Source: Heterotrichella gracilis
Taxonomy: Eukaryota > Sar > Xanthophyceae > Tribonematales > Xanthonemataceae
Direction of reading: 5' to 3'
DNA length: 60,406 bases
Assembly: GCA_032358255.1 (NCBI GenBank)
Contig: JAULBX010025486.1
Span: forward strand, 1-60,406
Part shown: positions 2,295 through 60,406 of the stretch, piece by piece
How the letters are laid out: the number at the start of each line of letters is the position of its first letter
How positions within the stretch are numbered: position 1 is the stretch's first letter
The notes under the pieces: generated by a model
Seen by the model: the letters and a program-made list of their open reading frames with translations, nothing else
Database searches by the model: none
Told to the model about the DNA's origin: nothing
Position numbers and translations under genes: made by a program

Positions 2295-2638
2295 CAAGGG
2301 GTGCACTTCAGACCAAACAGGCTCTTCATATCCACATCCCCTGCTAACACTGCTTATCCAAACGCTTTCCTACAATCTTCACCCAGTCCTGGACAGCACG
2401 CACTTGTACACCGTGGGGTTGGCCCGCGCCGCGCCGGGGGGCTTGCTCAATGTGTGCACCCCGGGCTGAAAAAATATACACCCTGTCCAACCGCAAGGGT
2501 TGCACTCTAACCAAACCAGGCTCTTCATATCCACATCCCAAGCTTTCCTACGACCTTCACCCGGTCCTGGGCAGCACGCGCTTGTATACCGTGGGGTTGG
2601 CCCGCGCCGCGCCCGGCGGCTTGCTCACTGTGTGCACC
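2295..2638. repeat. tandem copy of the CHRD gene 3' end
   Basis: The block 2493-2638, which holds the last codons and stop of the CHRD gene and the sequence after it, has a diverged copy at 2295-2462. Both contain the same string around TCTTCATATCCACATCCC followed by the same coding end. Because the gene is on the minus strand, the copy lies downstream of the stop codon and is outside the coding region. Confidence 0.8.
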
Positions 2639-3541
2639 GCAAAGTAGGCCTTGTTGGCCACAAACGCCTGGGCGGTGGCGGCGGAGATCTTGACCGTGCC
2701 AAACAACCGCAGGGGCTTGGCCACTGCGTTGTACACCGACACCCTGCCCTTGAACACAGCCCCGTCGATGTCTAGGGCAGGGTCTGGGAAGTGCGCCTTG
2801 GTGACCTTGTTGTGGAAGTGGAAGCCTGTGATGTCCTTCAGCCCGGAGACCTGCGGGGTTGGGGTTTAGGGTTTAGGGTTTAGAGATGTGGTGGGGTCTG
2901 GGAGGTGCGCCTTGGTGACCTTGTTGTGGAAGTGGAAGCCGGTGATGTCTTTGAGCCCCGAGACCTGCGGGGTGGGTGGGAGGGGGGTGACATGGGAGGG
3001 AGAGAAAGGGGGGCGAGAGAGGGGAGGAGGGAGGGCAGCGCCTGGTGCAAGGTGAGGAAAGGGTGGTGCCAAGGGAGGGAGAGAGAATGGAGAGGGAGGG
3101 AGGATAATACCTGGTGCAAGACGCTGATTGTAAGGAAGCTGGATAGTTGCTATGGGCAAGCATGATGCACTAGGCGACACGCACCCTCACCTGCTGCAGC
3201 CTTGCATACACGCGGGGACCACCCCGCACCGGGCAACACAAGGTGCACCTACAGACATGCACCTTAAATGGTGTACTTCCCACTGCCAATGCATATATGC
3301 CCCGCACCGTGATGTCGTAGGTGAGGCTCGTCCCGGCAACTGTCAGGAACACATTGCCCCTGGCTGCGTTGTTCAGGGGCGGGATGACGTTCTTGCCAGA
3401 CACCGCGCCCTTGAGGTAGTACACACCCACGGGTGGCTTCACAGCGGGGGTGGGGATGGGTGTGGCGTGGCTATGGCCCTCGTGCGCGTACGTGTAGCCC
3501 AGTGCGATTGCCAGCAGGCATGCAACCAGTGTCAACTTCAT
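2557..3541 (-). CDS. secreted CHRD-domain protein
   Basis: Two exons: 3541-3308 and 2850-2557. They join in phase 0 to give 175 residues. The first about 20 residues (MKLTLVACLLAIALGYTYA) are a typical signal peptide, followed by a His-containing stretch (HEGHSH). The rest fits the CHRD family: a first strand pair around GAVSGKNVIPPL and TYDIT, then VSGLKDITGFHFHN, which joins exactly across the intron, then the end of the domain. The donor GTGCGG was chosen because it restores the continuous CHRD motif; reading on would insert unrelated residues. CHRD domains occur in chordin and in many secreted microbial proteins of unknown role. The product is probably extracytoplasmic; its partner cannot be told. 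Both ends of exon 2 have tandem copies beside the gene. Confidence 0.85.
2776..2972. repeat. duplicated 5' end of CHRD exon 2
   Basis: The acceptor and first about 75 bases of exon 2 (2776-2858) are repeated at 2890-2972 with few changes. The copy still has a TGCAG-like acceptor and encodes the same VSGLKDITGFHFHN motif before it runs out. The two copies are separated by three telomere-like GGTTTAGGG units. The upstream copy is a possible alternative acceptor that would give a broken product. Confidence 0.85.
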
Positions 3542-6029: not shown

Positions 6030-8146
6030 ATGGACACCACCAGCACTAGCAGTCTGCACACCACACAGCCCACCACCTCCAGTCCCCCCACCAGCCCCAC
6101 CACCAGCACCGGCACCAGTACTCCCCCACACCCCACCACCATCCACGACCTACCATTTGAGCTGCTGTACCACATCCTGACCAACCCACCCTCCCAGACA
6201 AGGCAGCCCTGCAGCTGGCCTGCAAACGCTGGCACTCCCTCTTGGGTTGCCCCAGCCCAGCCTGGAGTATCGTGGATACGAGTGACAAGCGGTGCCAAAT
6301 TTCATGGCTGCTAGCCAGATTGGGAGCTACCCGCTCGCTCACCTGTGGCCTGGGGACCAACTGGACCCCAGCTGAGTGGGAGGAGCTGCTGGTATGCCTC
6401 AACCCCGCATGTCTTCACCACCTGGAGTGTACCAGCAATCACAGCCAAGACTTGCTACAACACATGGGCCGGTTCACTGGTCTGACCACCTTGCCCCTGC
6501 ACTCTCCAGACCCACTCCCACACACCTCCCCCACGCCACAAGGTGCCATTCTGCTCCAGCTGGCACCCCTCGTCAACCTGCAGACCCTGTCTCTCTCCCT
6601 CACCACGAGGCCTGGTGAGCCACTATCGGAGTGGCAGCCTCTTCCCCCCTTGCCTCAGCTGCAAAAGGTGCACCTGGGCCACGACTCGGGCGACGTTGGC
6701 GACATAGTTGCAGACCTCCCTGCTCTGTCCTGGCTGGAGCTTGAGTACTATGGAGCCCAGATGCACCACTTCAGCACAAGGTACATCGCCTGGCTCTGAC
6801 GGTGCAGGATACCTTGAGGATGCTGGCCGCACATCCCCCCCCCCTTCCTCCCCATTATTCCTCCCTGTGCGTAACAATCACCAACCTTTTCTTGACATGC
6901 AGGGTCATCCAACTCACTCAGCTGACATACCTGGGCTTGCACCACCAGTCCCTAGGACCGCTCGTCCTACCCGGAGGGGCTTTCCCAGGGTCCTTGCGGG
7001 AGGTTGTCATGAGTTTGCCCCAACAGGATGGGGGGCGCCACCTCACAATGGATTTGGAGGTGTTTCTGTCTGGACTCACTGGCCTGACCTCGCTGAGCCT
7101 GTTTGGATGCCAGGTGGCGCACGAGGATGCACTGGCAGGTAGGGATAAGAATAAGGAATGAAAAGAATGACGAAAATAGGAATTCACAAGGATTAAAACA
7201 AGTGAAGGACAGGAATGCATGGCGTGTGGCCGTGTTGCTGGATGCATCCTTCCAGGAGCACGCATGGCAGTGGCAAGTATTGTACCGTATTAAATCGTTG
7301 AAGCCAGATAAGCCTGGGTGGTGGCATGCATGTGACTGAAGTACCAATGCGCACCTGCCGCGGTTGTACTGAGCATTTGTCAACCCGCACGCACATGCCA
7401 GACTGTTGGCATTGCATGGGTGTGATACATGCAGTTCTTTCCACATATTTGATGTAGGGTACGTGGCATGTGCAACATTGCTACCGCGCACCTGCAGCTG
7501 GGGACAGGGACAGCATCCCCGCAGCGGAGGCGTGCCAAGCATGCTGAAACAAAGCCCTACAAGTACATGTGAAGAGAGCAAGGTCACCCAAGGAAGCATG
7601 GTCCCCTCACGCGCAGGCCTCCCCCTGCTGCAATCCCTGGCATTCAGCTCAGAGAAAGACCTCCGCCTGCCTGTGCTGCCCCACCTCACCCACATCCGGA
7701 GCACCCCCCAACAGCGCGTGCACCTCCCCCTCCCCATCCACCCGCAGCTGCGGGTGACGGGGTGGTGCCACATCCATGCCCTGAGGAAGAAAAGGGAGGA
7801 CTACTGCCACGGAATCACCGTCCATGGGAGGTATGGGCTGTACAAAGCGTCCAGCAGTGCTGCCAAGCTGTGGCTTGGGGAGGGCGACACAGGCACAGAG
7901 CCAGCCACTCTTGAGCAGCGTGCCTCGGCGGAATATGAACACAACGCGCGCGAGGAGCGGCGCTGGTGCCTGGAGTGGTTGTGCGTGCAGGCTGCGCCAT
8001 ACAGGTTCCCGGAAGGCCAGGCGGGGGCGGGCAGTGCTGCGGTGCCGGACGAGCTAGGGCCGCTGGCCAGGTGCCAGCTCAATTCGCAGCGTGGCGCCGT
8101 GTATGAGCGTATGATGGCTGCTCACAATGGACGCAGGTTTTGTTGA
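6030..8146 (+). CDS. F-box/leucine-rich protein, frameshifted
   Basis: Three exons fit: 6030-6780, 6903-7138 and 7617-8146, joining in phases 2 and 1. After a Thr/Pro-rich N-terminus, an F-box begins at LPFELLYHIL near 6150. The second half of the F-box (ACKRWHSL) is in another frame, so one base is missing or extra close to 6190-6200. Downstream the frame stays open and is leucine-rich (LVNLQTLSLSL, LTQLTYLGLHH, LTGLTSLSLF), typical of leucine-rich repeats. The last exon ends with a charged region I do not recognise. F-box proteins act as substrate adaptors of SCF ubiquitin ligases, with repeats choosing the target. The frameshift may be real (a pseudogene) or a sequencing error; intact splice sites downstream favour an error or a very recent break. 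Confidence 0.65.
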
Positions 8147-8869: not shown

Positions 8870-11800
8870 ATGCAGGTATTGGAGGAGCTCAACGCCGCGA
8901 TCGGCCTGGCCCTTTCGCACAACAAGAAGAAAAAGCTTCGCCACAAACGCTCAAAGCTGTACAAGACGCTCTCTGCCACCCAGCCCGTGGTACGCGCCCT
9001 GGCCAGCGTTGCATGCATTCATGGACGGGCCACACGGTACCATGCATGGATTTATGGGCGCGCCTTGCACCTGGCATGTCGTGCAAGCTACTGTATTTTT
9101 TTTATTATTATATGTCAGTGCGTGGGCACTCGCCACAGCGCCATACTGCAGTATTGTCATATGCATGCATATGGCTGCGTGTCGGCTGTCCGCCGTCGAG
9201 ACCGGCTAGTATGCGCCTTGCACCTCACTTCCCGTTGCAAAGCACTGTACAAGAGAGATACCTATTATACCAGCACGTGTGGCGTTAGGCACCGTACCTA
9301 GCAGCGGTGCACCCGACCTCGTTGAAGGTTTACCTTGCTAGGCCAAACCTTGCTGGTATCCCCATGCGTTCTAACACGGCTGTTATTCTGTCACCCTTGC
9401 ACAGCTTGCGCCACCCAGCCCTGATATGGTGGGCCTTGTACCATTCTGAATATGTACTGGGTTCTTTCATATCTTTGCTACCTCCTCATTGTACGTGTTT
9501 TCTACCACAGAGCACCTCGAGCGGGCAGCTGACAGACACACCAGCCCATAGCTCCCTTTCACCCTCTGATGCCACACCAGTCGCCGTTCCTGCTGCTCAT
9601 GTGCGGGACTCGGCGACCCAGGACGCCTCCCAAGCCCAGTGCCAGCCCTCCGCAATAAAACCCTCCACAGGGTTTGGGTCAGGGGCGGAGGCCGTGCAAC
9701 CCAGCACTAACCAACAGCAGGGAGAAAAACCCTCCACAGGGTTTGGGTCACACGCCGGCCAGGCCCACCCCTCTCGCAGCGACCAGCAGCAGCCTGCATC
9801 AGGCAGCACCCGAGGGAAGCGCAGCCGGGGAAGGAAGCGGAGGAGGGCCGGTCAAAACCCTAGCCAAGGGCAGTGCCAGCCGTCCGTCGAGGACTCTACC
9901 AACTGCTCCGCCAACGCCCTCACCTCATGCCATACCCTAGACAGCAACAATACCACACCCTTTGCCGATCACAGCGGGGTGCAAGGGGACAGCGCCATGA
10001 CGCCGCAGCCCGAGGAGGTCGGCCGCCGCGCGCCATGCCATGGCGACGCGGGATGCGCTAATGCCATGGCGTTTCCCGCCGCGCATGGCGACATGTCCTC
10101 GGTGGCAGCCATCATCGCGGAAGCCTACCTCTGTCCACCCCTGCTGCCGCCACGTGCTGATGAGGCGCCAGGCAGCGTGGAACATGATCGACCGCCAGGT
10201 GGCGCCACGGCATGCCGCGTGGACATGTCGATGTGCGCCATGCTGTCGCACCATGCGGTGCGGGCGCGGGATGTGGCGGAGGCGCAGGCGGCGGACGGCG
10301 CGCGGCGCAAGGCGCTGTTCGTGCACGGGAACTACGACGCGTACTATGGGTACCGCACGGGGGGAGGGCAAGGGGAGGACCCCCGCCTCAGGGTGCGCGC
10401 AGGAAGAAGGGGGTGCACACACAATCACAACTACACCAACAGTCACAGTTGCAGTTACAATAACAGAAATGGCTTCCAGCCGTGCAAATCTTGCAAATTA
10501 AAATAGAAAAAATCTGGGGTTACCGTCGGCGCATCCATTATAACAGCATGGGTTGAGGCAAGTTACTGGGTGCACCCACTGTCCATGAGTTTGAATCTGG
10601 CAGAGCAGCCATCATCACCATGACCATTACTCCAACCCCAACCCCCTGCAGGTGCTGAAGCAGCATTGGTTTGCTCGCAAGCGGTGCCTGGACGTTGGGT
10701 GCAACGCGGGGGTGGTGACGCTGGCGCTGGCTGCGCGGTTTGGTGTGGCCGCCATGACGGGGGTGGACATAGACGCAAGCCTCATCGCCAAGGCCTGCAG
10801 GTGGGTGAAAGCGTATGGTTGGAACATGGTGCGAGGAGGGCGATGGCGAGGGGGATGCAATGGAGAGGGGGAGGGGGCCAGTGTAGTTGGGTTTTGGGAG
10901 TGGGAGGGGATGCGCATCGGCTGTGGTGAGTCTGGGGATTGGGTGGGAGACACCCACTGGGAGTGCAATGGGGAGGACATTACTCCCAGCCAATGCCTTT
11001 CTACCTGGCCCCATACTGCCCCCATACTGCAGGCCAGTAGTGTTCAACTCGTGGAAACCCTCCCTCCATCACCGCAGGGCGCTCAAGCAGGCGCGCACCC
11101 AGTCCGTCGCCACCTGGCAGGCCCACCAGCGCATCCCCGCCGCGGACCCCACCTCCCGCTCCCACGCGTCCTCCGCCTTCAAGGCCTGGGTGGGCCTGCA
11201 GAACGTGCGCTTCCACCACCTCGACTTTGCCAACGCGCACCCCCCCGAACCCAACGAGGTGGACGCCATCACGTGCCTGAGTGTGACCAAATGGGTGCAT
11301 TTGAATGGCGGGGATGAGGCGCTGAAGAGGCTGTTTGGCAGGTTTTGGAGCGCGCTGGCGCCCGGGGGTCACCTGGTGCTTGAGCCGCAGCCGTGGGTGT
11401 CGTACGAGAAGGCGGTGAAGAAGCAGGTGGGGTTTTGGGGGAGGGTTCGGGGCAGGGTTTTGGGTTTTAGGGGCAGGGTTTGGGTGGTGTATTGAGGGTG
11501 GGGGATTGAGAGCTTGATGCTAGTGCCGGTAGTGGTGAGGAACTTGTGCATGTCGATGTAATGGTATGCGCAATACCACATGATCATTAATCATCCCATT
11601 TCCCTCCCCACTACAGTGCGCTGCTGCATCCCTGTACCATTTCCTGCCCTCCCTTCACAATATTTCAATCCCCACACATTATCCCCAACCCCCGCCACAC
11701 ACATGCGTGATCCCCGTTTCTAATCGCTCCATTCCTCCCCTCTGCAGGGCGCAGCGGCTTCCGTGTACCACCCCCTTTCCTCCCTGCACCTGCTGCCGGA

Positions 11801-12993: not shown

Positions 12994-15900
12994 ATGAAAA
13001 ACCCTAGCCTCCCTCAACATCGCCAAGCTAGTCCTTCAGGCAGCACGGTAGGGGCACTTATTACCGGCATGGAACACCAGAAAACTTCAGGTAAGCTGGG
13101 TGGGAGAGAAAACATCCTGTGAATCAGTCCGGCATGCACCTCCGTCACAAATGCACGTGCAGTGCATTGGCATCTGCAGTCGATCGTTCGACTCAACTCA
13201 GGCCTTGTTTTCTGTACAGGGACTTGCTTGCACCAAAATAGTAGGATATCCACTATTGGTCGGTATCGCCCAGCCATTCTATACAGCCAACGACGGAACA
13301 GCACGGCGCTCTGGCGGCAGGCATGGAGTGGCCATGGCATGCACAAGCTCCTGCCTAGGCACCGCATGGTCAACCCCATTGCTTGCTCATCCACAGCCAG
13401 CGCATCAATTGGAGGGTCCCAAAGCCTCTCTTCCTCGGAGCTGTCCGATGGGACCGTCACCAGCAGGCACAGCCACCACCGCCAGCGCTTTGGGTGAGCC
13501 ATGGGCACGACGATCGGTGGTTTCTCACCCTGTTTGGGGAGGTCAAGGCGCTCCTTTTTCCTGCTCTTTACAGACCATAATGGCCTATATGTTAACATAC
13601 CTACCCATTCTAAACAGTCCTCGAAAACTAAGTTTGGTCACATTTGAACCTGTGTCTCTGGACAGCGCACACAGTACCCCATGGGTTTGCAGGTATTAGA
13701 CGCATCCGTATATGTGCCTGCACCACGGAACCCTGACCAACATACCCTGGCTGTAACTATGCAGCGTAACGATCTACGGTAACAGTAACGGGTCCTGCCC
13801 GAATTTCTCCACCATTTGAGCACGAAGCACTTTTGTTGGCTGGTGCAGGTTCAGGTCAGATTTCAGTGACAAATACATTCTGGGGGGTCGGATCAGCGCG
13901 GGCGCCGAGGGCAGTGTGTACATCGCCACTGACAGAGTGACACAGGACAGGTGCGAGGGCATACAGACACCCTTATCATAAACCCTACACCCTAAACCTG
14001 AAGAATGTACAGAATGACATGGGACAGGTATGTGCATTCCGATACCCTAAGCCACAAACCCTAGACTCATTTGGGATGCGATTGCTGAACCTAGAAGGGG
14101 TGTGGCCTGAACCATCTACCCTACCTCCCACCTATCGAGGTTTTTTATATCCCTAGCTTGAAGAATGTCAGGAAGCTTGACCCTCAACCCTCCATCCTAA
14201 TCACATATCCTAAACCCTAAACCCATGTGCAGGTATGCCGTCAAGGTGGTGCGGAAGCAGTTTGCCCCCGACGGCGCCCTGTCCCCCCTGTTCCGCACCC
14301 ACCTACGCCACGAGGTGGACATTGGCAAGAGGCTCAGCAGCTCGCTGGCAGTGGCCCGGGTGTATGGGGTGTATGAGGATGAGCTGCATGTGCTGATGGT
14401 CATGGAAATGTGCACAGGTGGGCTGGATGGATTTATTATGGCATTTTGGTCATGGACGTGAGGTGGACAGTGCCACTAGGGTCATGGACATGGGGGGTGA
14501 CACCACACTGTCACAGAGGTGTCATTCACCAGCAAGGTCCCTGGTTTTGGAACATTTGGACCTACAAGTGGGATTTGAAACTATGGCTGTGGCCGGGGTA
14601 CCCGCGGGTGTATTAGGTTTATGAGGATGAGCTGCATGTGCTGCCGGTCATGGAAATGTGCACAGCTGGGCTGGGTGGAATTGTTTAGAAAAGGCCAGGT
14701 TTGGTCATGGAAATGGGGTGCATGATGATGTAGATCGTCATCAGCAAGGTTCCCTGGTTTTGCAATCGGCGGCTTTCAACTCGCTGGCTGTGGCTGGCCC
14801 GGGTGTAAGGGTTCAGGGTTTAGGGGAGTGTACGAAATTGACCTGCACGTGCTGCTGGTCATGGAGATGTGCACAGGTGAGGTGGAAGCCATCAAATGAA
14901 ACGAATGCATGGTATGAAAAGTGCTGGGTAAGGGCTGGTTTGCGCAACGCATGCAAGACAGACTGCTAATCTGGCTGTATACACTATCCAAGCGGTGTTC
15001 CCACCTTAACTATACTTATAAAAACATTTCTCTAAAATCAATTCAAATAGTATCAATCATAATTCAACCGTGCAGGCGGCGAGCTGTGGGAGCGCATGGA
15101 ACCCCACTCCTACACCGAGCACCAGGCTGCGCTCATCATCCACGAGGTGCTGCGCGTGGTGGCGCTGTGCCACTCAAACGGGGTCATTCTGCGGGACGTC
15201 AAGCCAGACAACTTTGTGTTTTTGGATGCCGGGGAGCAGTCGCCGCTCAAGGCCATCGACTTTGGGGCGGCGGACTACTGCCGGCCAGGACAGTATCTGA
15301 CTGAGAAAGCAGGTAAATATACAGGCCCCCGTCCTGCATCCAGTGCGCTTAACCATCAACCCTTTTACTTGTAGAATTTAGACAAAAAATTACTTTATTG
15401 TGTTTTTTATTGGTTGCTTCTGGCAGGTCCATATCTGACAGAGGAAGCACACGTCCCCTGCTACACTCAGCCCCCACGCCCCCACTCCCCACCTGTTGAG
15501 CACCCCACACTTCATGTCCTTGAGAGTATGCTAGGCACTTCGCCCTAACCCAGCTTCTACAACGATCAAATTGACCCCATTTCCACCCCCAGGGACCCCC
15601 ATCTTCATGGCCCCCGAGGTGTATGCGGGGCGATACTCGCTGAGTGCAGACATGTGGAGCGCTGGAATAGTGGCATACATGCTTCTGGCAGGTAACTACC
15701 CCAATGTGTCATTTTAGAGTGAACACATTGACATTCCACAATTGCATACAACATTGACGATCCGTTTTGTTCCCCTGCTGTTAATGGCTGCTTGCTCAAG
15801 TTGAAGGACCGGCTGCACTACTTCAATTGTTAACTCCTTATTTTCTTGTCTAAAAATTCAGCATCAATTCTTTTCTACTTCTTCCAGGCCGCCTCCCTTG

Positions 15901-22800: not shown

Positions 22801-24004
22801 TGCACCGCAGGCCGCCACCGCCCCCCATGTTGCACAGCATGCCGCCATCCATGTTGCAGCCCCCACTCGCACCGCACACAGGCTGCTGGGCAGCTGGAAC
22901 AGGGAGTAGGTCACATAGTACAGCCCTGCGGGGAAAATTCCAAAAACAATAAATGCATTTAGATAAAATTGAAGTAATTCACAGCGGTGCACCATCACAC
23001 ACCCCACCCACTCCCTCGCCCCTCACACGCCACCATCTACCACCCGCCATCACTCCCCCAGCCGCCAGCCCCACCCACCCACTCCGCACCGGCACTGTCA
23101 CGCCCCCGCCCCCTTGTGGTGCATGGCGCCTATATTACCCACCTGCTCCCAACCCATACTCTGTCCTTGACAGCCCCAGATGGTCACCCAGCTGCACGAA
23201 ATCCGTAGCCAGCAATAGCACACATCCCCCACTTCCACCGCGATGCACCGCCACCCCCTCCACCCTTGACCCCCACCATCGCACCACCCACGGCCCACGG
23301 TGGGTGGTGGTTTGAGCTGTTGTTGGGTCAACCACCCACCACGAGCACAACCCTCACCCACCTGCTCCCAGCCCATACTCCGTCCTTGAGAGCCCCAGGT
23401 GGTCGTTGAGCTGCAGTGCTGCGAAGGAGAGGTTGGTCTTGTCCAGCGATGACGCCAGGGCCAACAGGAACAGGGGGGGGATGACATACCACCGCAGCTT
23501 GCCAATGATGCGCCGCTCACTGACGTCCACCTGGGTGGTTGTAACTCGTCTGGGAATGGTGGTCAAAGGGCAGCTGTGGTATCTGTCAGGATTTGACTTG
23601 TGTGAACAAGGTTTACGTGTGGCTAGACACATGCATGCAAACGAAAAAACCCGCAATGAAGGACCAGGCGCCGTCTCAGTGAACCCAGTGTGTGTCTTCT
23701 CCAGTGTGGGTTGTTGTCAAACGGGCGGCTGTGGTACCTGGCAGTTTGAATTGAAGCCAAACGCATGCATGCATATGAAACCATGCGACGGACTAATGTT
23801 TCAAGGGCCGAAGCTAGTTAGCTAGATGGAGAGCTCCAAAGTACTAGAGTGTTAGTTGTCTTGTTTGAGCCGAAGAAACCAGGCGTGGGTGCATAGACCT
23901 ACCTCTTCCTTGACATGGAGGGCCTCAGTTTCCAGGGGCTGGATCTCGCCGAGCTTGGAAGTGTCAGCTATCGCTGCGCCTATAAGGACCTCTGACAGCT
24001 TCAT
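19858..24004 (-). CDS. MFS transporter, anion:cation symporter type
   Basis: Nine exons, all phase-consistent: 24004-23903, 23530-23362, 22925-22731, 22588-22377, 22053-21587, 21239-21106, 20837-20637, 20322-20240 and 20031-19858, giving 578 residues. The order of motifs follows the anion:cation symporter branch (allantoate, nicotinate and phthalate permease relatives): RRIIGKLRWYVIPPLFLLAL with SSLDKTNLSFAAL in helix 1; LGLSRTEYGLGAG; a YYVTYSLFQLPSSL helix; LLLGLAETG; FYTPRTMSVTYSI; GWQWLFLAEGVPVVVLGVV; then FWLPGTIQTSSFLT, which matches the usual central loop. The second half has FWIPLLIKAIL, ALPYTAAALAAMV, SERNNEFRYHIACPLV and a last helix pair. Residues between FWIPLLIKAIL and NGPALMAALPY form a Gly-rich insert. 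The tail is hydrophilic. The substrate is probably a small organic anion; the exact one cannot be told. Confidence 0.9.
20402..20663. repeat. three copies of the MFS exon 7 3' end with donor
   Basis: The end of exon 7 with its donor (20626-20663) is repeated at 20509-20548 and 20402-20440. All share GTTCCAC-CACCCAGC followed by CAGGCCTGC-GCAGC or a close variant on the plus strand. The copies lie downstream in the direction of transcription, inside the next intron. Telomere-like GTTCAGGGTT and GTTTAGGGTT units separate them. Confidence 0.8.
21382..21645. repeat. copy of the MFS exon 5 3' end
   Basis: The exon 5 end around 21595-21645 (encoding FSSERNNEF) has a diverged copy at 21385-21430 in the following intron, which would read FRSEKNNEW. 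In the copy the donor has become GGGGCTGAGG, so it is probably not usable. Confidence 0.8.
23145..23432. repeat. copy of the MFS exon 2 3' end with donor
   Basis: The last part of exon 2 with its donor (23362-23420, encoding DHLGLSRTEYGLGAG) is repeated at 23145-23205 with the same coding meaning (QLGDHLGLSRTEYGLGAG) and a donor GCAG|GTGGGTAA. The copy has an AG upstream of CTGGGTGACC, so a short alternative exon is conceivable. Confidence 0.85.
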
Positions 24005-26849: not shown

Positions 26850-29800
26850 ATGCCTGCCTTCCCGCGCTTTCTGCAAGCATACAGTGCGAGGCCCACCCTC
26901 TTTGCGCGTGCCGCCCGACCCCAGCACTTCTCCTTTCCTCCCTTCACCACCCGCCATCCCACCAACTCAAGGCACACGCAGAGGTCCCAGCGCTCGCTGA
27001 GTGCTACTTTGAGCAACCGCACGTCAGACCACCCAGCCAGCACCATGGGTGCCGAAGGGTGCCAGAAGGGGTTGTCCGGGTCCTGCAAGGAGCAGATCGA
27101 GCCGCTGACATTGGAGGTAGAGGGCACGTTCCCGCCGTGGCTGGAGGGCGCGCTGTACCGCCACGGACCGGGGACGTTTGACATCCCCACCACCTCTGGG
27201 AGGACCTTCAGCTTCAGCCACTGGTGGGTACCCCCAGTACTGGCCTCTCTCTCTAACTGCAGACTATATATCCAAGCCTGTACAGAGCCGTACCCAGGGG
27301 GCTTCGATACTCATAGTTTGGTTCTCAAGTAGTGGTGCCCAACCCCCTGCACAACCCCCTTGTCAGCTTCATGCCTGCAAGCAGTTGATGGTGCTGCGGG
27401 TAGCCTTGATCCATCAATTGAATTCCCAAATACTGAAGAGCACCTAGGGATGCTGTAGCAGTGGCCGGACTCACTCGTCTGTATGTGCACGCACAGGCCT
27501 CGCTATCGTGCTAGCCTTACACTAGGGTGTAAGCCAAGAGCGTTGGTTATTGGACACCTGCGCTCAGTTAGTGTGCTGCCGTGTGTGGGGGCGTTTTCTT
27601 TCTTTCTAGTGGAGATATACCGTGTCAACCTGTGCATATTAAATAGACCACCTCCACGTTTACCATCCACAGCTTATGGGCAGTGCATCGCTCACCATCC
27701 ACCAGCCACATTATAGCTTTATTTACACACCAGTATTACCACATCCACACACCCTGGCGCGTATACACAAATACGAGGACGAAGGGGTGAGAATTTTTAA
27801 GCCCTAACCCTATTCACACTACCCTACCCACCTCTACCCCCGGCTCACCAGAGTGCACGTGTTTGCTGAGAACCCTAAACCCTCATCCCCCATATAAAAC
27901 CGCCTGCCTGTCCCGACAAGGGCCAAACTGCTTTCCTGGACTCTTTGGTCCCTTTCAATAATTAATTCATTATTTTAGTTTATTGTCAGTTTATTTGATT
28001 TCTTTTGGTAATTTTAAATGGTTTGCAAAACCGCCCTGGCTGCCTCAACAAGGAGCAAACTGCTTTCTTGTACTCTTTGATCCCGTTCAATAAGCAACCT
28101 ACGTTGTTAAATATTGAAAAAATCATTTGAATTCTATGTGCGCCCCTTGGTCCCAGGTTCGACTGCCTGACGGTGATGCACAAGTTTGAGGTCCAGGGTG
28201 GCGTGGTGACCTACCGCAACCGCCACTTCAACCGGGAGATGGAGGAGTGGATCAAGGAGAAGGGGAGGCTGCCGGGAGCTGGATTTGGCCAGGACCCCTG
28301 CAGGAATGTGTTCATGCGGGTCATGTCCCACCTCACGGGCATAGGGAAAGGTAACAAAAAACAATCATTTGAACAAATCTTACCGCCATGCAGCGCCAAG
28401 ATTTACAAGCAAACAAGGGGGATGTCCTCCAATGCCTGCCGACAAGGACTTGTGCAAGTTTGTGCACTGCCGCTTGTGCCTTGTGGCCTATGGTGCACGG
28501 TGTGTGCACTGCACACGCTCGCCACATTAACTGCCATACACCTATACCATTCCGCACCGCCATCGAGTACCGACGTCAAGCACTGCACCGATTTGTCGCC
28601 CAAAGTTGGTTATAATACAAAATTGTTGCCAAATATTGGTTCTAACGTACGGGGACCTCTTACTGGTGCAGATGCCCCCCCCACCGACCCAAAGACAGGC
28701 AAGCGAGCCAATCCCAATGTGGGGGTAACAATCGGCAAATTGCAGGGCAAAATGGTGAGTGGAAGGGCAATTCCCTAATTCCGGGTAATTACTGTTAACC
28801 CACTGTGGTGTTACCATCAGGCAAAATTGCACGGCAAAATGATGCATGCCAGGACGCTATTGGCCAATGCTAACACAATGTGGTGTGTGGTAAGGGTAAA
28901 TCCCAGGACTCTAAAAGCTCGAGGGTGTGTGTGACAAGGGCTGTACCTTGCACCCACCCTGTTTCTGTCACATTTGCACCTGAAACCCACCCTTGCCCAG
29001 GGTTTATGCTTCTCCTGTGCACCTTGACCAAACCTAAAAAGGGTCATGCAATTTGCTGCTCCCGCCACCCCTACCCCTGCAGGTATCTTGCATCAACGTC
29101 AATCTAGAGAATCTGACCCCCTGGGTATAAGCAAAACCTGATGAAGGGCATTGCTCAATCCGTGCCACCCGCCCTGCAGGTTTCTCGCACCGATGCCAAC
29201 CTCCTTGTCGAGTTCCTCCCAGAGGATTTGACCCCCCTGCCCATGTTCACATACACCTCCATCAACCCCGACATCAAGGTGAGCAAAACCCTAACCTTGA
29301 CTAGGGTAAGTGTTTCCACTGGACTTGGCCCATATGCACCTCCATTAACCTTAAAATCGAGCAAACTTTTTTCTATCTTTTTGATGACCATTTCAGTAGA
29401 CAAGCCTGCCCCAAATCGCCTACCCCACCGGCCCCTCCCCCATGCCGCAGGGACCCCTCGCTGCCTCACATGCGCAGTACGATGCAGCCAAGGGAGAGAC
29501 ATACAATTTCACCCAGGACTTCCCCAAAGGCAAGGGGTTGTACACCGTTTTCTGCATCCCTGACGATGATGCAGCGCATCCCGGGGGCTACGTGCTGGCA
29601 AAAATCCCTGCAACGTCTGCCTACATCCACAGGTAGGGATTTAGGGTTTCAATGCAGCGGTGTGGCGCTCGACCCTAAATTCTTGAGAGATCGACCATGG
29701 TTTCTATATCCTGCACCCTACGCCCCACACAGTTACACCCCCCACCCCACCCCACAGCTTTCCCCCAGCGAGCACTATCACATCCTGGTGTTGTGATCAT

Positions 29801-33095: not shown

Positions 33096-33136
<41 letters not shown>

Positions 33137-40400: not shown

Positions 40401-43400
40401 GTTTGAGGCCCAGGGGGGGTGCGTCAGGGGATTGGGAATAGGAGGTGGTGACCTGCAAGTTGGGGACCGGAGGGTTTTGAGGCCCAGTGGGGATGCATCA
40501 GGGGATTGGGAAAATGAGGTGGTGACCTGCAGGTGAGTTTAGTGCATGAGCTGCGTGGAGATGATCATATGAATCCTACCTTAAACCCCATGCATGCCGC
40601 AAGAACCCTTTATTTTTGTGAAATGCAGGCTATTAGTGCATAGCATTTGTAGCTACACATGCCCAGCTGGTGAAGTAGGCAAGCCCTGTGAGCACTCTTC
40701 ACACGAATACAAGCACTACAAATTAATGATGAAAGCCCGCCGCAGTCCGAACACCACCCACCACGAGATCCCCATCACATCTTACCTCCCCGTCTGCCCC
40801 CCGCATGCGCACATCCCCCCTGGGCTCCCCCCCTGCCAGCACCACATCCACAGCCTCCCCCACATCCACGTGCACCACCCACTCGTCCCGCCCCACCATC
40901 TCCACCGCAGTGTCAAAAGTGGGGGGGGCGGCGCGCTCCAGGACCGACTTCTGCACTCCCCGCCGTTTGGCCTCCTCATCCCCGAGCGTCACGCTGGTGA
41001 TCCCCCCAATGAGGTCAGACAGGGATGGGTTCTTCATCACGTTCTCCAGCTCATTGCCTGCAATACAGGGTTCAAGAGATGTGACGTTTTTAAGCGCATT
41101 GCATCCATTGGAGTACTTGGGGTTGCGAGCATATACGAGCAATTGTACAATTGTACACACACACACACACACACACATAAAACGGGCGTCCAAACCAAAT
41201 ATATCGCAAACATACGGATGTGGCATAAGCCGATGCCTGGTTTAGCACGTTATCATTCATTGTGCAGGGTTTGGTTGAGCCTATTGTAACAGTCTCAAGT
41301 TCCATGCTTCTTCTAACCCACCCCGCCGCCGCCCCCGCCCCCGCCTCCCTCACCACCCACCATGTGCCGTGGCCCCACCCCATGAGCTGCACCTCCCTCT
41401 GCACAATGGTGCTGTCTCACTGCCATTGCCACCCCTCATCTATTACACTACCCCTTGCACACACCAAGTACTTACACCCCAACCACACACACCCAGCCAC
41501 CCACCGTCTAAACACCCCCACCACCCCACCACCACCCACCATGCGCCGTGGCAATCAGCTGCACCCCCCTCTGGGCGATGGTGCGCGCCGCCAGCGCCTC
41601 GGCCTCCGTGCCTATCTCATCTATGACGATCACCTCAGGCATGTGGTTCTCAACCGCCTCAATCATCACCTTGTGCTGCTCATCGGGGTTGGACACCTGG
41701 CACCAAGCAGGGATGCAGATGAAAAAATGATTTGATTAAGATTCGAATGAAAGTAGTTGTTTTGCATTACATGGGCATTCCATCCACCTCGATCATCACC
41801 TTGTGCTGCTCATCGGGGTGGACACCTGGCAACAGGCAGGGTTGTAGATGAAAAAATAATTTGATTGAGATTCGACTGAAAGGAGTTGTTTTGCATTACA
41901 TGGGCATTCCATCCACCTCGATCATCACCTTGTGCTGCTCATCGGGGTTGGACACCTGGCACCAAGCAGGGTTGTAGATGAAAAATTGATTTAATTAAGA
42001 TTCGACTGAAAGTAGTTGTTTTGCATTACATGGGCATTCCATCCACCTCGATCATCACCTTGTGCTGCTCATCGGGGGGGACACCTGGCAACAGGCAGGA
42101 TTTATAATTTTTTTTCAGATTTATAAAAAGATATAAAGAAGTCTTGTGTAATGGGCGTTCCATCCACCTCAATCATCACCTTGTGCTGCTCCTCGGGGTG
42201 GACACCTGGCAACAGGCAGGGATGCAGATGAAAAATGACAGATAAGCAGGCAGGGTTACACGTGGAAAATAAAAAACAATCAAGTTTTGGCCACCTGGCA
42301 ACAAGCAGAATTATATAGCAAATGAACCATATTCCCTGTCACCATCTGCTGGTCCTTGGTGTCTGGCAGATAGGCTTGCAAAGTCATTAAAAGGAACATA
42401 TGAAAGCATGTTGCATGACATTTTCACCGCCCTGCATGCTATAGTAAATTTTCCACCACTCTACTCCAAACCGCTCCTCCCCCCCCTCACACACACATCC
42501 ACCACCCACCTGCATCCGCCGGGCAGCCCCCACCCCAGGATGCGGGATATCCCCATCCCCCCCAATCTCATTGGAGGTGTCCACAATAACAACCCTTTTG
42601 CGGCAGTCGCCAGCCAGGGTGCGCGCAATATCGCGGATTGCAGTGGTTTTGCCCACCCCAGGTCGCCCTGCATTGAAATTGCAGTTATTGATTACTCATG
42701 CAGCTCAACCCATGTAATCGGGCCATATGTGTGCATTGGACCAAATTACGCACGCTGCGCCCCCATGCGATCAACCATTTGTGCAACTTGCACCCGATTG
42801 CTCAAACCAGGGGAGATGCCACATAATCCAGGAAGGGGTTTACCCGTCCTAACCAAACTAGGTGCAACCCCCTGGTGTTACATGCTCATTCGGGAGCTCA
42901 GCTGAAAGTAATGCAAAGACCAATTGCCCCTCCACGATCACATCCAAAGCCAATTAACAATGATCCAAGATGATCACATCCCCATCACCGGCCTCAACTC
43001 ACCCAGCAGCAGCACCGACCGCCCCTCCATGATTATGTCCAAAGCCAATTAACAATTATCAATAATGATCCAAAATGATCACAACAACTCACCCAGCAGC
43101 AGCACCGACCGCCCCTCCATGATTATGTCCAGGATCATTCCCGCCGAGCCAGGGATCGACCTCCCCACCCTGCACGTGAGCCCAACCACCTTGCCATTGC
43201 GGCTGCGAATGGCGCTCACCCGGTGGAGGGTGCGGTCAATGCCCGCGCGGTTGTCCCCGCCAAAATCACCAACCTGCAATAAAAACATATTTTTAAAGAA
43301 AATAGGATACTCACCGCGCGGTTGTCACCACCCGTGCTAAAAATTGTGTGACTTGATTATGCCCCACTGGCCCCACATTTACTAACACACAGCTTGAACA

Positions 43401-51600: not shown

Positions 51601-54600
51601 GCAGCGTTTTGGAAGTTTGGTGGCGCTCCCCTCCCCACCCCCCTTCTCCTACCACCCTTGGAGGCGCCCAGAACCCTAGCCGATTATAGGGAAAACCCTT
51701 CACAGTCAGGCGCAGCGGTTGGCGTGCCCCTCTCCAACCCTGTTCTCCCATCCCCTGTGGAGGCGCCAAGGACCCTAGCAAACCCTAGGGAAACCCCGTT
51801 TCAGCCAGGGCCGGCGGCTGGGCCTCTTGTCCCCACCACCCTTCCACCAGCACCCTTGGAGGCGTCCGGAACCCTAGCGAACCCTGGGGAAACCCCCGTC
51901 CACCCACCCCCGTCGGAGGCGCCAAGTGATGCCAAGAAGCGAGTGAGGGTGCCTTGGAGCGCTGAGGACTTGGGGGTGTTTCAGCAGGCGCTGCGGGACT
52001 TTGGGAAGGACTATACAAGGATACAGGTGAGGAAACCCTGGATACCCTAGTACAATACCTTATTGGAAACACTCTAGCAGCAGGCACTGCGGGGAGTACG
52101 GGAGGGACTACATAAGGTTGCAAAACCCTTGTTGCAGTACATTTGTTGCAAACCTCTTTGGATAAAGCATGTTAAAGTTCCCTTGTTGCAAAATTGTAAC
52201 AAAACCGCCTTTAAATAATGCAACACAACCCTAATCTTGGCCGCAACCCGAAAACCCTACCCTAAACTCTTCCCTGCAGGAGCGCCTGTCCCACCCCTCC
52301 CGCGTGCAAGCCATGGAGTTGTACAAGAACCTGGATGCCCAAACCCCTATAACAAAAATCCTAGTTCCAAGCCCTAATCCACGGCTTCACTTGCAGGAGC
52401 GCCTGCCCCAACCATCCCGCAACCAAGTCATCAAGAAGTACCATCACCTTGATGCTTGAAACCCCAGTGCAAAAACCCTCAAACCCTACTCTAAACCCTT
52501 CCTTGCAGGAGCGCCTGCCCCATCGCTCCCGCGATCAGGTCAAATACTACCGTACCAGAACCCTATCGCCCAAAACCCCAATACAAAACCCTAATCCCAA
52601 ACCCTATCATAAACCCTTCCTTGCAGGAGCGCCTGCCCCACCGCACCCGCAACCAGGTCAAGAAGTACTACCTGAGCCACAATGCCCAAAATCCCAGTAC
52701 AAAACCTTACCCCAAACCCTATTCTAAACACTTCTCTCAAACCCTATTCTACACCCTTGTCTGCAGGAGCGCCTGCCCCATCGCTCCCGCGACCAGGTCA
52801 AGAAGTACTACTTAAGCCACAGGCCACAGCTGGAGCAGTATCTGCAACAGCCAAAGCCAGGCGAGCCACAGGCCAAAACAGGCGAGGCACAGGCCAAAAC
52901 AGGTGGGTTGCATGACCAGAGCCTCCAAATTCGTGTGCAGAATTGCAGCCATGCCCTACGCCACGCAACACAACACACACACATCTGTACAATCATGGCC
53001 TCCTTGTTGCAGAAAGGATATACGCTTTTCTGCCCGCCATTATTACATTTACAATCACAGCCCCTGCATCCCCCTTTCCGTGTGCCTAATCATTGTCACC
53101 GACCTTGCTGCGCATGATTAGATACAGACATCCCCCCTTGTACCTAACCATGTCCCGTTCTCCCCCTTGTGCAGGCAAGTTTGCCTCCCTCTCGCAGCTC
53201 TACCAGCGTAACGAACCCCCCTTGGCGGCCCCCCCACCAGTCCCCACTCCACCTCATGTGGCGCCACTGGAACCCCCCACCAGTGGGGTGGGGGGAATGG
53301 GTATACACCCCACAGTCACAACCACAGCCACAGCCACAGTCACAGCAGCTCCACCCCCCACTCACGAGCCGGCCTCCACAGTACGCACAGTACCCACCAC
53401 TGGCAGGCCATCACCACCACCCACAGCCACCACCACCATCGACCTCACCAGCCCCACCCCATCACCCACCACAGCCCCCAGCCACCCACCCGCCAGACCC
53501 ACCATCACCACCACCGCCACCACCGCTACCGCCGCTGCACCAGCCGTGGCACCCCCTCCCAGCCCCCTCCACCCACCAGCCAAACCCACCATCGCCACCA
53601 CCGCCGCACCAGCCGAGGCGCCCCTCACCGCACCCACCCACCCCCCACCGGTGCCGGCACCACCTGCCACCACCAGGCCCCACCAGCCACAGCCAGGGAG
53701 GAGCTCTGTACCCCCACCCACCACCCACCAGGGACCCCCACCCCAATCCAAGCGCAAGCCACAAGATGCACTTCCAAGCAAGGGTATGTGCGTGCATGAA
53801 ATGGAGTTGATAACATCAACATGTGATATTTGTAAAATAGCATATGCCTGTCTGTGTAAAAATGGCATATGTCTCAGTATGTCTGTCTTGTTTATTTCCG
53901 TGCCACCTTGGAAACCCTACACAAACATAAGAGAATCCTACACAGCGAAGGTACCATGCACCTCCCAGAAAACCTAACAAAGATCTAAACCCTTAACCCT
54001 GAAATCGCCCTCCCTTGCAGGCGCGGCAACACCCTCCGCACCCGCCACCACCACCCCAGCACCCGCCACATCCACCCACCCAGCACCCGCCACATCCGCC
54101 GCCCCAGACCCTCCCCCCCGCATCTACCCCCGCATGAAATCGGACCTCAAAAAACCACTGGCAGCACAGGGGAGGAATCCACAACCAGGGAGTAGGAGGG
54201 AGGTAGAGGGACCAAACCCTAGCGTAGGATCTGCTTCCGTCCCCGCCCCCCCGCTACCCTACCATGTGCGCTCAGACCCTATGAAACCCTCGCCGGCTGC
54301 GCGCAGCTTCCAGCCGTGGGGGGAAGCAGATGGGGATCAGGAGGGGGGGAGTGCAGTTGAGGCGCAGGGGGGATCGGGGGATGCTGCGCCCCTTGCGCAA
54401 CCCCCCCTGGGGGAGGCATCCGAACGCCTGGCTGGGGTATTGCCGACAAGGTTGGTTGCAGCGTTTGCTGCAAAGGGGCTGGAACGCAGCCACATGGGTC
54501 TCGAGGGAAACCCACTGGGGTCCTCGAGCGGGGAATCGCCAAGGGGGGGTGGTCCAGCGCAGCCGGCAGAGGAGGGGGGGTTGCGTATCCGCACCGAACC

Positions 54601-57600: not shown

Positions 57601-60406
57601 ACCCAGCGGATGTGGGTGTGGGGGATGTGCCACGCATGTGCCGCGGCGGGTGGGCTGCAGTCAAGTTCTACGACGCGCAGCTGGCGGCGGAGGCGTACCC
57701 CACGTAAGGCGTTGGCCACGGGTGTAGGGTGTTGCTTGTGTGTCGGGCGTGTGTGGAAATGGGTGTGGCAGTGTTTTGTTGGATAAGTGTGATGATGATC
57801 CTCTCTTGTGCTTGCCATACGTGTCCACAACGAGGAGGTCCAGGTTGGCACATTGGGAAGTGTGAATTCCTTTTAATTTTAATTTTGGCTTGGCGCAGGA
57901 TGCGGCACATGTACCTCATCTGCCCGCCCCACCCCCCGCGCCCCCTGATTGTGCACCCCCCCCGTTGGGCCAAGAACCCCTGGGGGGAGGGGCCATTCCC
58001 TGGGAATGTGGATGTGCGCACTATGGCCGGCCAAGCAATTGTGCCCCATTTCGTGCAAGCCAATTCGGTGGAATTTGCGCCCGCCATGGAGTGGCGCCAC
58101 CTGTCGCAGGTGCGCATGCCTGCTTTGTTGCAGCTACTACATTCAGGGGCTAGGGTTTAGGGTTTGCGACCGCCGTGGAGTGGCGCCAGCTGTCGCAGGT
58201 ATGAATGCCTGTTTGTTGCCATTGAACTTGCAGTTTGGTCAAGCAAACTGCTTGGTGCTGCCCCCATTTTGCTCTTTGTTTCTCTGACTTTCATCATTCC
58301 ATGTCGGTTTTCCCTTCTGCTTTTCAGGACAACGTACCCTCTCCTCCCGGTCTAGGGTTTATGGTTTGTGGTTTCAGTTATCACCTGTTCCTTTACCTTC
58401 CACCTCTCTTCCAGGTTTAGGGTTTGCGGTTTGTGGTTTAATGTACCCCTGGTCCTTCACCTTGCCCCCCTCCTCCAGGTGTGCCTGGCAGCCAAGCGGC
58501 AGCTGCGCATGAAGCACATCAGGGAGCTCAAGACCCTGCTGAAGGAGTATGCAGCGGTGAGACTGCACATGTTGTCTTTCACATACACACCGTTCGTCTT
58601 TTGTTATCGTAGTTTGAAGACAGTAGTTGGCCCAAGGCGACCTTGTACTGGCTCCAATGCCAAATCGGGGAAGGGTTAACCGGGGCCCACAGGGGTAGCT
58701 TCTTGTAATTATACATTGATACGTGGAAGCGTGCTTTAGATGTTGTGGGATCATATCAAATTGGTTGTAAAGCACACATTTCGGCTGGAGTCAAATTTTG
58801 TTCATTACACCCCTCTCCCCCCCTCGTAGGAGGCCGGCATCCCGCTGTCCCCCCACCCCCCCCGCCAGGTCCCCGTCTCCAGCTTCCTGTGGCTCAAGGC
58901 GCTGTCAGGGGGGGTGACGGACAGCGCCATACGGGAGTGGATGAGCCAGTTCGCGTTCAAGGGGAAGGTAGGGGAGTAGTGGCTACCCTAAACCCTGCAT
59001 GTAGGATGTTTGGGCTGCCAGCTAATGGTCATGAAAAGGTGAGTGGGGGCTGGAGTGACAGTGATTGTATTCCTGTAATCAACGGAATTTCTCCCAGCCG
59101 TCATCGTAAGGGGTTATAAGCTACCTTCAACACTGCGCACAGAGTGTTTAGGCTGAAAATTTATGGTGACGAACATTACACACCAAATAAACAAGCATCC
59201 ACATACAAAAAAACTGCATTTCGACTCCTCTCCAGCTCAACCCCCTCTTCCTTTCCCCCAGATCGACCGCCTGCTGCTCCTGCCCAACCCCGTCACCGGG
59301 CGGTCCTTTGGCCACGCGCTGGTGCAGCTGGAGTCCCCCATCAAGGCACAGCTGGTGGCGCAGCGCGACGTGACTGAGATGGTGGCGGTGCTGAGTGGGT
59401 CGCCACGCCCGCTGGAGGCAACGGTGGCGAGGCCAGGTGGGTGCCTGTGAATGGTGGTGGGTGAAGGGTGGCGGTTTGGTACTGTGACGCCTTGCTTCTG
59501 GATCAGGGATTGGGGATGTCACATGCGCTTGGACGGGCTAAGCATACCTTGGCATTGTTGCAATGTCATCAACTTCAGTTATTTTAATAATAGATGTATT
59601 TCTGCGTTTGAAATCACCAAGTCTGCTTCCCATTCTTGCACAGGTGGGCCACAAGGCTCTCAAGGCAACTACGACACAGCCCTCCGCACAACACTAGGGC
59701 TTTTGCCAGGGTTCATGCTCGGGGCGCTGCCAGGCCAAGACCAGCCTGCCTCCGGTGCCAAAACCCTGCTGAGGGTTGAGGTCCTGACCCGGGAAACTCT
59801 AATGGGTGACCCCGCCACCTGGACGCCCGCCACGCGCTGCGCCCTAAGGGTTCGACAGGTGCGGGTGAAAACCCTAAACCTCCAAACCCGAAATCCAACT
59901 GATTGGCCACACGCTGCTCACTGCAGGTTTGAAAGGTGGGTGGAAACCCTGTCCATCGAAAACAATGTTGCTTACTACCTCTTCTTCCCAGGGTATTGGT
60001 GAGGGGTTTTCAGGTTTAGGTTTCAGGAGAAGCCTCATGCAACCCACCACCCACCTCCCCCTCTCACACACCCCACTCCCTTGCAGGTGGCTGAACGCCA
60101 GGAGGTGGAGCGAGCAGCGTTTGCCGAAACCGCCGCTGCCCGCCGCCGCGCACTGCACATTAAGCAGGAGGCCTACCTGCATGGGGAGATGGCCAAGCTG
60201 GTGCTCATCAGGGAGCTGAACAACTCCCAGATTGTGAGGGATTTGCGCCCCGGGGGAAGGGGGGTGCCATTTGGGGCCCCGCCGCATCAGCAAGGGGGGG
60301 ATGGAGGCAGGGGGAGGGGGAATGGTGAGGGGGGGAGGGGGAGGGCGAGGGGGCGGGGGAACGGGGCGGGCGGGAGGGGGCGGGGGAGGTCGCCGTCGCC
60401 GGGCCG
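45609..60406 (+). CDS. giant Agenet-SANT-RRM-RGG protein, runs off right edge
   Basis: Nineteen exons are in phase: 45609-45650, 46383-46475, 46913-47120, 47756-47861, 48205-48337, 48705-49092, 49388-52026, 52767-52902, 53175-53783, 54021-55431, 55782-56010, 56324-56683, 57582-57703, 57899-58109, 58479-58556, 58830-58967, 59262-59436, 59644-59858 and 60087 to the edge, at least 2,537 residues. Residues 1-115 form an Agenet (Tudor-like) region: AELREDDEGF, FFEVTVLKVRGEKCTVRF, LLRPPAPDD, CLYDGGWWLGHV. A disordered Pro/Ala/Lys region of about 900 residues follows, then a SANT domain (VPWSAEDLGVFQQALRDFGK, then ERLPHRSRDQVKKYYL, about 1170-1225). More low-complexity sequence leads to RRM 1 (TLCVDNLGV ... 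GGWAAVKFYD), RRM 2 (SFLWLKALSG ... FGHALVQLES) and an RG-rich tail. It probably links chromatin and RNA in the nucleus. Confidence 0.85.
47756..47935. repeat. copy of giant-gene exon 4 3' end
   Basis: The end of exon 4 (ACGAAAACCCTACCGCTGGAGGAGGAG, 47824-47850) is echoed at 47903-47930 (GGGGAAACCTTACCGTAGAGGAAGAGGAG) just downstream. The copy has no usable donor. Confidence 0.7.
49440..51960 (+). repeat. heptamer-rich coding repeats in the giant exon
   Basis: Inside the 2.6-kb exon, dozens of AAACCCT or near variants recur, often about 20-40 bases apart and often paired with CAGGG or AGGGTTT. In the reading frame they encode KPS, KPL or NP. A longer unit with GVPPTIPTQPIPTP occurs twice (near 50587 and 50716). 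The reverse strand is also open over 629 codons because the repeat is poor in stop codons both ways. Confidence 0.8.
52280..52902 (+). repeat. five tandem copies of the SANT second-half exon
   Basis: Copies start at 52280, 52397, 52509, 52627 and 52767, each right after a TGCAG acceptor and each reading in phase ERL followed by a Pro/Ser-His-Arg stretch. Copies 3, 4 and 5 read ERLPHRS/TR-QVK-YY. Only copy 5 continues to a donor that fits the next exon. Spacing is 112-140 bases. Between copies lies sequence rich in AAACCCT. Copies 1-4 look like decayed or alternative exons. Confidence 0.92.
56735..57366 (+). mobile_element. non-LTR retroelement 3' fragment, with decayed twin
   Basis: An AT-rich 118-codon frame (57010-57366) sits in an intron of the giant gene. 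It reads RMGAHDLEVETGRW, then a Cys/His set CKYC ... DEHHFIFECP, which is the zinc-binding tail typical of plant and algal LINE reverse transcriptases. The polymerase itself is absent, so the copy is 5'-truncated. At 56745-56880 the same DNA (GACTATGAGCATAGGTTGTG against GATTATGAACATAGGTTGTG) appears as a badly decayed twin. Base use is clearly unlike the host exons. Confidence 0.7.
57367..57440. repeat. 74-bp near-perfect palindrome after the retroelement stop
   Basis: It starts on the base after the stop codon. Positions 57367-57402 pair with 57404-57440, with one bulged T at 57422 and a single central base. The inner arms contain a tandem 9-base unit (TCTTGTAAA). It may be the element's 3' end folded back by a second insertion in inverse sense. 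Confidence 0.95.
58060..58200. repeat. copy of giant-gene exon 14 3' end with donor
   Basis: The end of exon 14 with its donor (58070-58125) is repeated at 58160-58215: GTTTGCGACCGCCGTGGAGT against ATTTGCGCCCGCCATGGAGT, then TGTCGCAGGT in both. The two copies are joined by telomere-like GGGTTTAGGGTTT. The copied donor CGCAG|GTATGA looks usable. Confidence 0.85.

Follow-up and report, generated by a model that had tools for sequence, protein, structure and literature searches.

Lengthening of introns is usually explained by transposons. Here we consider a pattern found in a stretch of 60,406 bases (the window; contig JAULBX010025486.1) from the xanthophycean alga Heterotrichella gracilis, where short blocks that span an exon edge and its splice site are found again inside the adjoining intron, at many loci with telomere-like sequence between the copies. 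Among the closest described systems are the tandem duplications made by end-joining in mouse cells from paired nicks with 46-nucleotide overhangs, including second and third rounds of duplication (Schimmel et al. 2017, PMC5730883); the same paper cites Vaughn and Bennetzen 2014 and Schiml et al. 2016 for tandem duplication at staggered breaks or paired nicks. Nergadze et al. 2007 (PMC2246262) describe telomeric repeats inserted at double-strand breaks, and the site is duplicated at 6 of 130 loci in rodents and 4 of 25 in primates. In addition, intron gain by tandem duplication is described for potato RdRp (PMC4974935).

In about one of every six predicted introns of the alga (66 of 376), an adjoining exon edge is copied into the intron, and such matches (score of at least 34) involve 44 donor and 27 acceptor edges. 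When exon edges are aligned to swapped introns, there are only 0.2-0.3 matches, which excludes chance. The sample for these counts consists of the window and 25 other 10-kb stretches of the same genome, giving 310,406 bases in all, or 0.45% of a 68.5-Mb assembly of 903 contigs. The window itself is eukaryotic nuclear DNA with spliced genes. Gene models come from a gene finder that uses an order-4 coding model and splice-site matrices, self-trained on the sample plus eight kinase loci. It converged on 82 genes with 385 introns, of which 376 lie inside the 310 kb and 79 in the window. The modelled donors are CAG/GTGAG-like and the acceptors TGCAG, while the median intron has 278 bases and the median internal exon 158.

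The duplications are real and local. Self-BLAST of the window gives 43 repeat pairs, 42 of which are direct, and 41 of those are no more than 0.6 kb apart. For the whole sample (at least 50 bits), there are 87 direct pairs at 30-1000 bases versus 2 inverted pairs within 1 kb, which is the local direct orientation characteristic of staggered-break tandem duplication. Only four direct pairs and no inverted pairs are found at distances of 1-9 kb. The pairs collapse to 62 independent loci with a median unit of 117.5 bp, and these are found in the window and in 20 of the 25 other stretches. The original prediction, which was made from the window alone and proposed a genome-wide pattern, therefore extends beyond its source.

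One of these 62 loci is a false duplication of the assembly (L031:6502-6755), because the segments 6502-6578 and 6679-6755 are 100% identical on both sides of 100 N. It was removed, leaving 61 loci for the edge, gap and intron-length tests. Collapsed or misjoined haplotypes might in principle have produced the other loci as well, but we consider this extremely improbable. Identity between copies at the 61 loci ranges from 67 to 98%, which is also the wide range of decay that had been described from the window. There is no N in the other gaps inspected, and the sole N run of the window (33145-33154) is distant from the duplication loci. Moreover, assembly errors would not be expected to prefer exon edges or telomere-like filler.

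There is a strong bias of these loci toward exon edges. A locus is termed edge-spanning if it reaches 6 bases or more into the exon as well as into the intron at a predicted boundary, and 44 of the 61 loci are of this type, whereas 21.3 +/- 3.5 are expected under random placement and none of 2000 placements reaches 44. A comparison of boundary-spanning with random duplications had been named in advance as the test that could refute the pattern, and the pattern survives it. The other loci, observed versus expected, are intergenic (1 versus 16.8), intron only (8 versus 8.8), exon only (5 versus 5.7) or mixed (3 versus 8.5). The bias is retained outside the window (32 of 40 loci, 13.1 expected), and it persists if the three richest stretches are left out as well (16 of 23 loci, 6.3 expected). 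Similarly, copies of at least 90% identity within 270 bases are seen for 20 donor edges (of 355) and 20 acceptor edges (of 350). Among control segments, the numbers are 4 in 1500 for intergenic DNA, 24 in 1493 for introns and 18 in 1499 for exons, where the intron and exon figures may contain the other halves of edge events. Of 370 donors and 370 acceptors, 31 and 22, respectively, have a copy in which the splice site itself is included.

One possibility is that ordinary random tandem duplication, filtered by selection and by detection, creates this bias. Tandem duplications are a common type of small insertion (cited in PMC5730883), those in exons would be lost, and copies anchored in an exon would remain recognisable for longer because one of them is constrained. 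Consistent with this explanation, exon-only loci are not below the random number, and the extra copy is always located where it is harmless. All 27 loci with one boundary and two separate copies have it on the intron side (19 other loci are arrays or involve several boundaries), and this position leaves the protein unchanged. The arrangement is also the one originally claimed, wherein a copied 5' exon edge lies upstream of the real one and a copied 3' edge downstream. However, intergenic DNA, where duplications would do no harm, is nearly empty. In addition, young copies (identity of at least 88%) are equally biased, with 13 of 15 being edge-spanning and 4.1 expected. The telomere-like islands described below, which are detected independently of exon constraint, are likewise rare between genes. 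The young copies and the islands rule out slower decay of exon copies as the source of the edge bias, and we regard random duplication as quite unlikely to be the full account.

The copies also extend unequally to the two sides of the boundary. At 19 loci of at least 86% identity, the median copy includes 13 intron and 47 exon bases, and the intron side is the shorter one in 16 of them (Wilcoxon p = 0.0006). For all 31 loci in this test, each represented by the row with the longer intron side and with the artefact excluded, the medians are 20 intron and 45 exon bases, and the intron side is shorter in 24 (p = 0.006). Since selection needs only a working splice site and the tails cluster near this minimum, the data suggest that breakage itself is centred on exons and declines within the intron. 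In several rows the intron-side breakpoint ends appear by eye to be G-rich on the outward strand. CpG depletion was considered as a possible hint of exon methylation and gave no support, as the observed/expected CpG ratio is 0.45 in introns, 0.61 in exons and 0.58 in intergenic DNA.

The best lead to a mechanism is a feature absent from the original prediction, namely the telomere-repeat filler that gives many loci a copy-filler-copy anatomy. There are 31 loci among the 61 with gaps of 15-110 bases, free of N, between the copies. A telomere-like 14-mer (at least 11 of 14 positions matching (TTTAGGG)n) is present in 14 of these gaps, versus an expectation of 2.0 for random positions in the same stretch or 2.7 for positions within 1.5 kb (maxima of 6 and 8 in 500 trials each). 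TTTAGGG is the motif that was scored, and it may not be the terminal repeat of the species. When 6-mers are ranked, without a chosen motif, by their enrichment in gaps relative to introns, the top ones are TTTAGG, GTTTAG, GGTTTA, TTAGGG and TAGGGT, and almost identical 6-mers top the ranking of introns over intergenic DNA. Thus, by the gaps and by the motif-free 6-mers, the inserted sequence is often a telomere-type repeat, as it is in interstitial telomeric insertions. The filler is unlike the adjoining flanks in 29 of the 31 gaps, which corresponds to the foreign filler of staggered-break repair. In the genome as a whole, there are 834 places with three exact TTTAGGG units (406 + 428, overlapping matches counted) and none for the reversed control.

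Telomere-like islands are not confined to the gaps. They are present in 90 of 376 introns, or about one in four, at a density of 1.13 per kb (132 islands), which is six times the density between genes (0.18 per kb, 18 islands); exons have 0.04 per kb (4 islands). After the exclusion of 3 of the 154 islands that are too close to an end, 45 of 151 are flanked within 150 bases by sequences that match each other, compared with 4.0% of 3000 random places. Among islands near a splice site that lack a clear duplication, 9 of 62 are associated with a weak one (score of at least 22), whereas 1.4 are expected, and this excess indicates that some islands near splice sites are probably old duplication events. 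Circularity of the gene finder, whose intron model might have been trained on telomere words, was examined by a rerun with islands shuffled and a single noncoding model. The result was similar, with 43 of 61 loci edge-spanning (21.2 expected) and island densities of 1.04 per kb in introns, 0.24 in intergenic DNA and 0.05 in exons.

Perhaps the islands came first. Telomere-like stretches that pre-exist near splice sites, either as splicing signals or as old insertions, might break repeatedly, and their repair might duplicate the exon edge. This explanation would fit the peak in island density of 2.36 per kb at 25-50 bases from the splice site, as well as the orientation of the islands, in that sense G-type islands are closer to the donor in 40 of 53 cases and C-type islands closer to the acceptor in 43 of 78 (p = 0.0006). 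There is also a hint of recurrence, because in 7 of 31 events there is an island on the far side of the extra copy, compared with 9.5% of random intronic 60-mers. However, a pre-existing island that was duplicated should leave filler similar to the flank beyond a copy, and such filler is found in only 2 of 31 gaps; many events have no island. Furthermore, the orientation bias may merely reflect selection against TTTAG before acceptors. We consider fragile islands an unlikely origin of the duplications.

Introns with an edge copy have a median length of 399 bases and those without 261, and the difference of 138 bases is approximately one duplication unit. An island is present in 37 of 66 introns with an edge copy versus 53 of 310 without (odds ratio 6.2, p = 3e-10). 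This link persists among introns of 250-600 bases, where islands occur in 28 of 47 introns with a copy versus 27 of 155 without (p = 9e-8) and at 2.4 versus 0.7 per kb, and so length alone does not explain it. The earlier idea of an ongoing growth of introns at exon edges is supported in that copy-bearing introns are longer and the additions are directed to edges, but the interpretation as a whole is only partly supported. There is no sign of intron birth by AGGT tandem duplication, as judged from one-diagonal matches between donor and acceptor (score of at least 18), which are seen in 3 of 367 introns versus 2.0 expected.

The direct repeats that flank the filler resemble the anatomy of an insertion, and the preference for genes is strong. 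Both features would be compatible with a mobile element or introner family that makes long target-site duplications, which we nevertheless find very improbable. An introner or other mobile family was rejected after an all-against-all comparison of introns, because matches between introns of different loci are mostly telomere-like words; the remainder are a single dispersed repeat of 90 bp and a handful of short matches, with no common core seen. At the one locus tested, filler plus real copy (31702-31817) has its sole genome match at its own locus. In addition, the target-site duplications of introners are 3-9 bp according to the passages used of PMC9860276, whereas the duplicated stretches here are tens of bases or more.

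On balance we lean, if only slightly, toward the view that local repair of breaks in gene bodies produced the copies, involving staggered breaks, fill-in duplication and telomere-type filler. A staggered break, in which the two strands are nicked at positions separated by some tens of bases, would occur near an exon-intron junction, and fill-in of both ends followed by end-joining would duplicate the stretch between the nicks. Telomere-type or other filler would often be added between the copies, with telomerase or some other telomere-templated step as its putative source. Where the exon-proximal copy retains an intact splice site, the event would be nearly neutral because the other copy and the filler become intron. 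Events inside exons would mostly be lost and those preserving the junction would survive, while repeated rounds would generate arrays and lengthen introns at their edges. Junctions or exons would presumably break more often than other DNA. Their involvement may be due to frequent breaks at junctions (through transcription, splicing or G-rich outward strands), to fragile islands, or to frequent breaks in exons combined with survival of only those events that keep the junction. A bolder proposal is that exon-intron junctions are recurrent break sites healed by telomerase or a telomere-templated reaction, wherein each cycle adds an edge copy and filler. We offer this only tentatively and with some doubt; if true, introns grow outward from splice sites, and exon edges are in effect recognised by the DNA repair pathway that drives this growth.

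Several points weigh against the repair of staggered breaks with telomere-type filler. Overlapping arrays with negative gaps make up 17 of the 61 loci, and 17 of the 31 gaps have no clear telomere match. The two gaps with flank-like filler, together with the overlapping arrays, indicate that plain tandem duplication occurs too. Telomerase polarity, with G-type repeats after the first copy and C-type repeats before the second, shows no clear trend in distances judged by eye from small numbers. Furthermore, every exon edge is a gene-finder prediction, and all events are from one genome.

Within the window, 14 boundaries have a splice-site-spanning copy in their own intron (Table 1). Two further boundaries bring the number to 16, namely the acceptor of the CHRD gene at 2850 and that of the ATPase gene at 41696, the latter with an array of 4.5 units. 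The count passes over them because their extra copies were annotated as exons by the gene finder. At least fifteen boundaries with two to five copies each had been predicted, which agrees with these 16 and with the one to four extra copies per boundary, although several are weak or uncertain. The weak copies are located at 11605-11658 (76%), 29746-29795 (80%), 41351-41412 (79%) and 43540-43562 (23 bp), and the uncertain edges at 30783 and 20519 are part of tiny predicted exons. Some duplications of the window do not span a splice junction. The first pair is the 3' end of the CHRD gene, the pairs at 27896, 56020 and 56752 are inside introns, and those at 48882, 50068, 50521 and 51461 are within predicted coding sequence.

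Table 1. Duplicated exon edges, their fillers and one related duplication in the window.
Feature	Position	Strand	Remark
CHRD gene exon start with acceptor (site 2850), downstream exon-proximal copy	2780..2862	-	92.8% identical to 2894-2976
Filler between CHRD copies, three (GGGTTTA) units	2863..2893	.	telomere match 14/14
CHRD acceptor edge, extra copy, upstream in gene	2894..2976	-	self-comparison
Copy of acceptor edge, exon at 11748	11605..11658	+	weak, 76%
CDPK gene exon end with donor (site 14417), real copy	14357..14465	+	self-comparison
CDPK donor edge, extra copy, donor GT changed to CT	14605..14720	+	self-comparison
CDPK donor edge, second extra copy	14816..14886	+	self-comparison
MFS gene donor edge, extra copy (real 23356-23415, site 23361)	23137..23196	-	
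Carotenoid oxygenase gene, copy of donor edge, exon ending 28754	28799..28844	+	81%
Copy of acceptor edge, exon at 29939	29746..29795	+	80%
Array of donor-edge copies, unit about 182 bp, GGGTGTA-type island 30605-30631	30524..31234	+	
Acceptor edge, extra copy (real 31741-31817, site 31772)	31626..31701	+	
Filler between the 31626 and 31741 copies	31702..31740	.	weak telomere match, 11/14
ATPase gene acceptor edge, extra copy (real 40395-40460, site 40452)	40469..40534	-	
Donor edge, extra copy (real 41515-41584, site 41539)	41338..41412	-	
ATPase array, 4.5 units of 130 bp, acceptor edge in each; real site 41696	41651..42236	-	
Donor edge, extra copy (real 43021-43131, overlapping, site 43092)	42926..43041	-	
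Giant gene, four extra acceptor-edge copies (exon at 52767), CCCTAAA-type islands between	52245..52821	+	
Giant gene exon end with donor (site 58109), real copy	58074..58131	+	
Giant gene filler, ends in GGGTTTAGGG	58132..58162	.	
Giant gene donor edge, extra copy, intact CAG/GTATGA donor	58163..58219	+	
CHRD gene 3' end with stop codon duplicated (2285-2460 / 2484-2638), no splice junction	2285..2638	-	

The extra copy of the CHRD 3' end, which lies downstream, keeps an open frame and is preceded by a TTTTTTCAG-like acceptor on the minus strand. From these sequence features it is possibly an alternative last exon. Five window proteins built from the predicted exons were compared with Pfam and match CHRD, protein kinase with EF hands, MFS_1, RPE65 and Spore_III_AA/AAA. 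The RPE65 match covers residues 4-494 of the 494 in the carotenoid oxygenase gene product (E 3.8e-102), and the best protein matches of this product are two at 50% and 46% identity, followed by Trebouxia (45%) and Micractinium (44%). One gene model of the window is probably a fusion of a methyltransferase-like gene with the kinase gene. No Rfam or tRNA match was found in the window.

Within the 10 kb of L024 (G000:C794:30001-40000), the densest of the 25 stretches, there are eight loci of duplication and 25 exact matches to TTTAGGG or CCCTAAA. The dispersed repeat, approximately 90 bp long, is present in both orientations, for example at 46680-46772 of the window, and a genome search scored 40 matches at 83-100% identity, of 589 candidates. 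Stretches similar to it are found in the window introns 47862-48204, 14418-15075, 20032-20239 and 16483-16828, and in introns of the sample stretches L019, L029 and L032. An inverted motif, AACCCT..AGGGTT, occurs in coding sequence of the window at 9659, 9728, 48936, 50654, 50807, 50929 and 59762. A looser form, ACCCT..AGGG, is found 42 times in sample exons, versus 11 for the opposite order AGGG..ACCCT.

These duplications point to a second route to intron growth, and a single organism would suffice to test it directly. Provided that the sample is representative, there would be thousands of natural decoy splice sites in the genome, at varied stages of decay, which would be useful for studying how true sites are chosen. 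A literature search by title and start of abstract, with most subscription papers and bioRxiv preprints outside its scope, turned up no description of telomere-filled exon-edge duplications in introns. The earlier statement that no name is known for the pattern is fair for the combination, but not for its parts, since both staggered-break tandem duplication and telomeric insertion at breaks have been described.

The comparison with known systems, as far as the consulted passages of the cited papers reach, is as follows. Staggered-break tandem duplications are likewise direct local duplications of tens of bases with junction inserts and repeated rounds, but the known ones are scattered or nuclease-induced, whereas those of the alga are natural, lie on exon edges and have telomere-type filler. 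Interstitial telomeric repeats are also short telomere-like stretches inside chromosomes, some with a duplicated site. There, however, duplication is found in a minority and the passages of PMC2246262 draw no link to splice sites, whereas the algal islands are intronic and near exon edges. The potato RdRp case is alike in that tandem duplication involves splice sites, but a new intron arose within an exon, whereas in the alga existing introns grow and there is no signal of intron birth. Introners (Gozashti et al. 2022, PMC9860276) similarly have a genome-wide effect on introns, in many unicellular eukaryotes, yet the alga has no common sequence family and no new introns, and its duplications are tens of bases or more in place of 3-9 bp. 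Plant telo boxes (Gaspin et al. 2010, PMC3022908) are telomere-unit motifs within genes as well, although they are enriched in 5' untranslated regions and lower in introns, whereas the algal motifs are enriched in introns. The component processes have been described before, and what the alga adds is their placement at exon-intron junctions.

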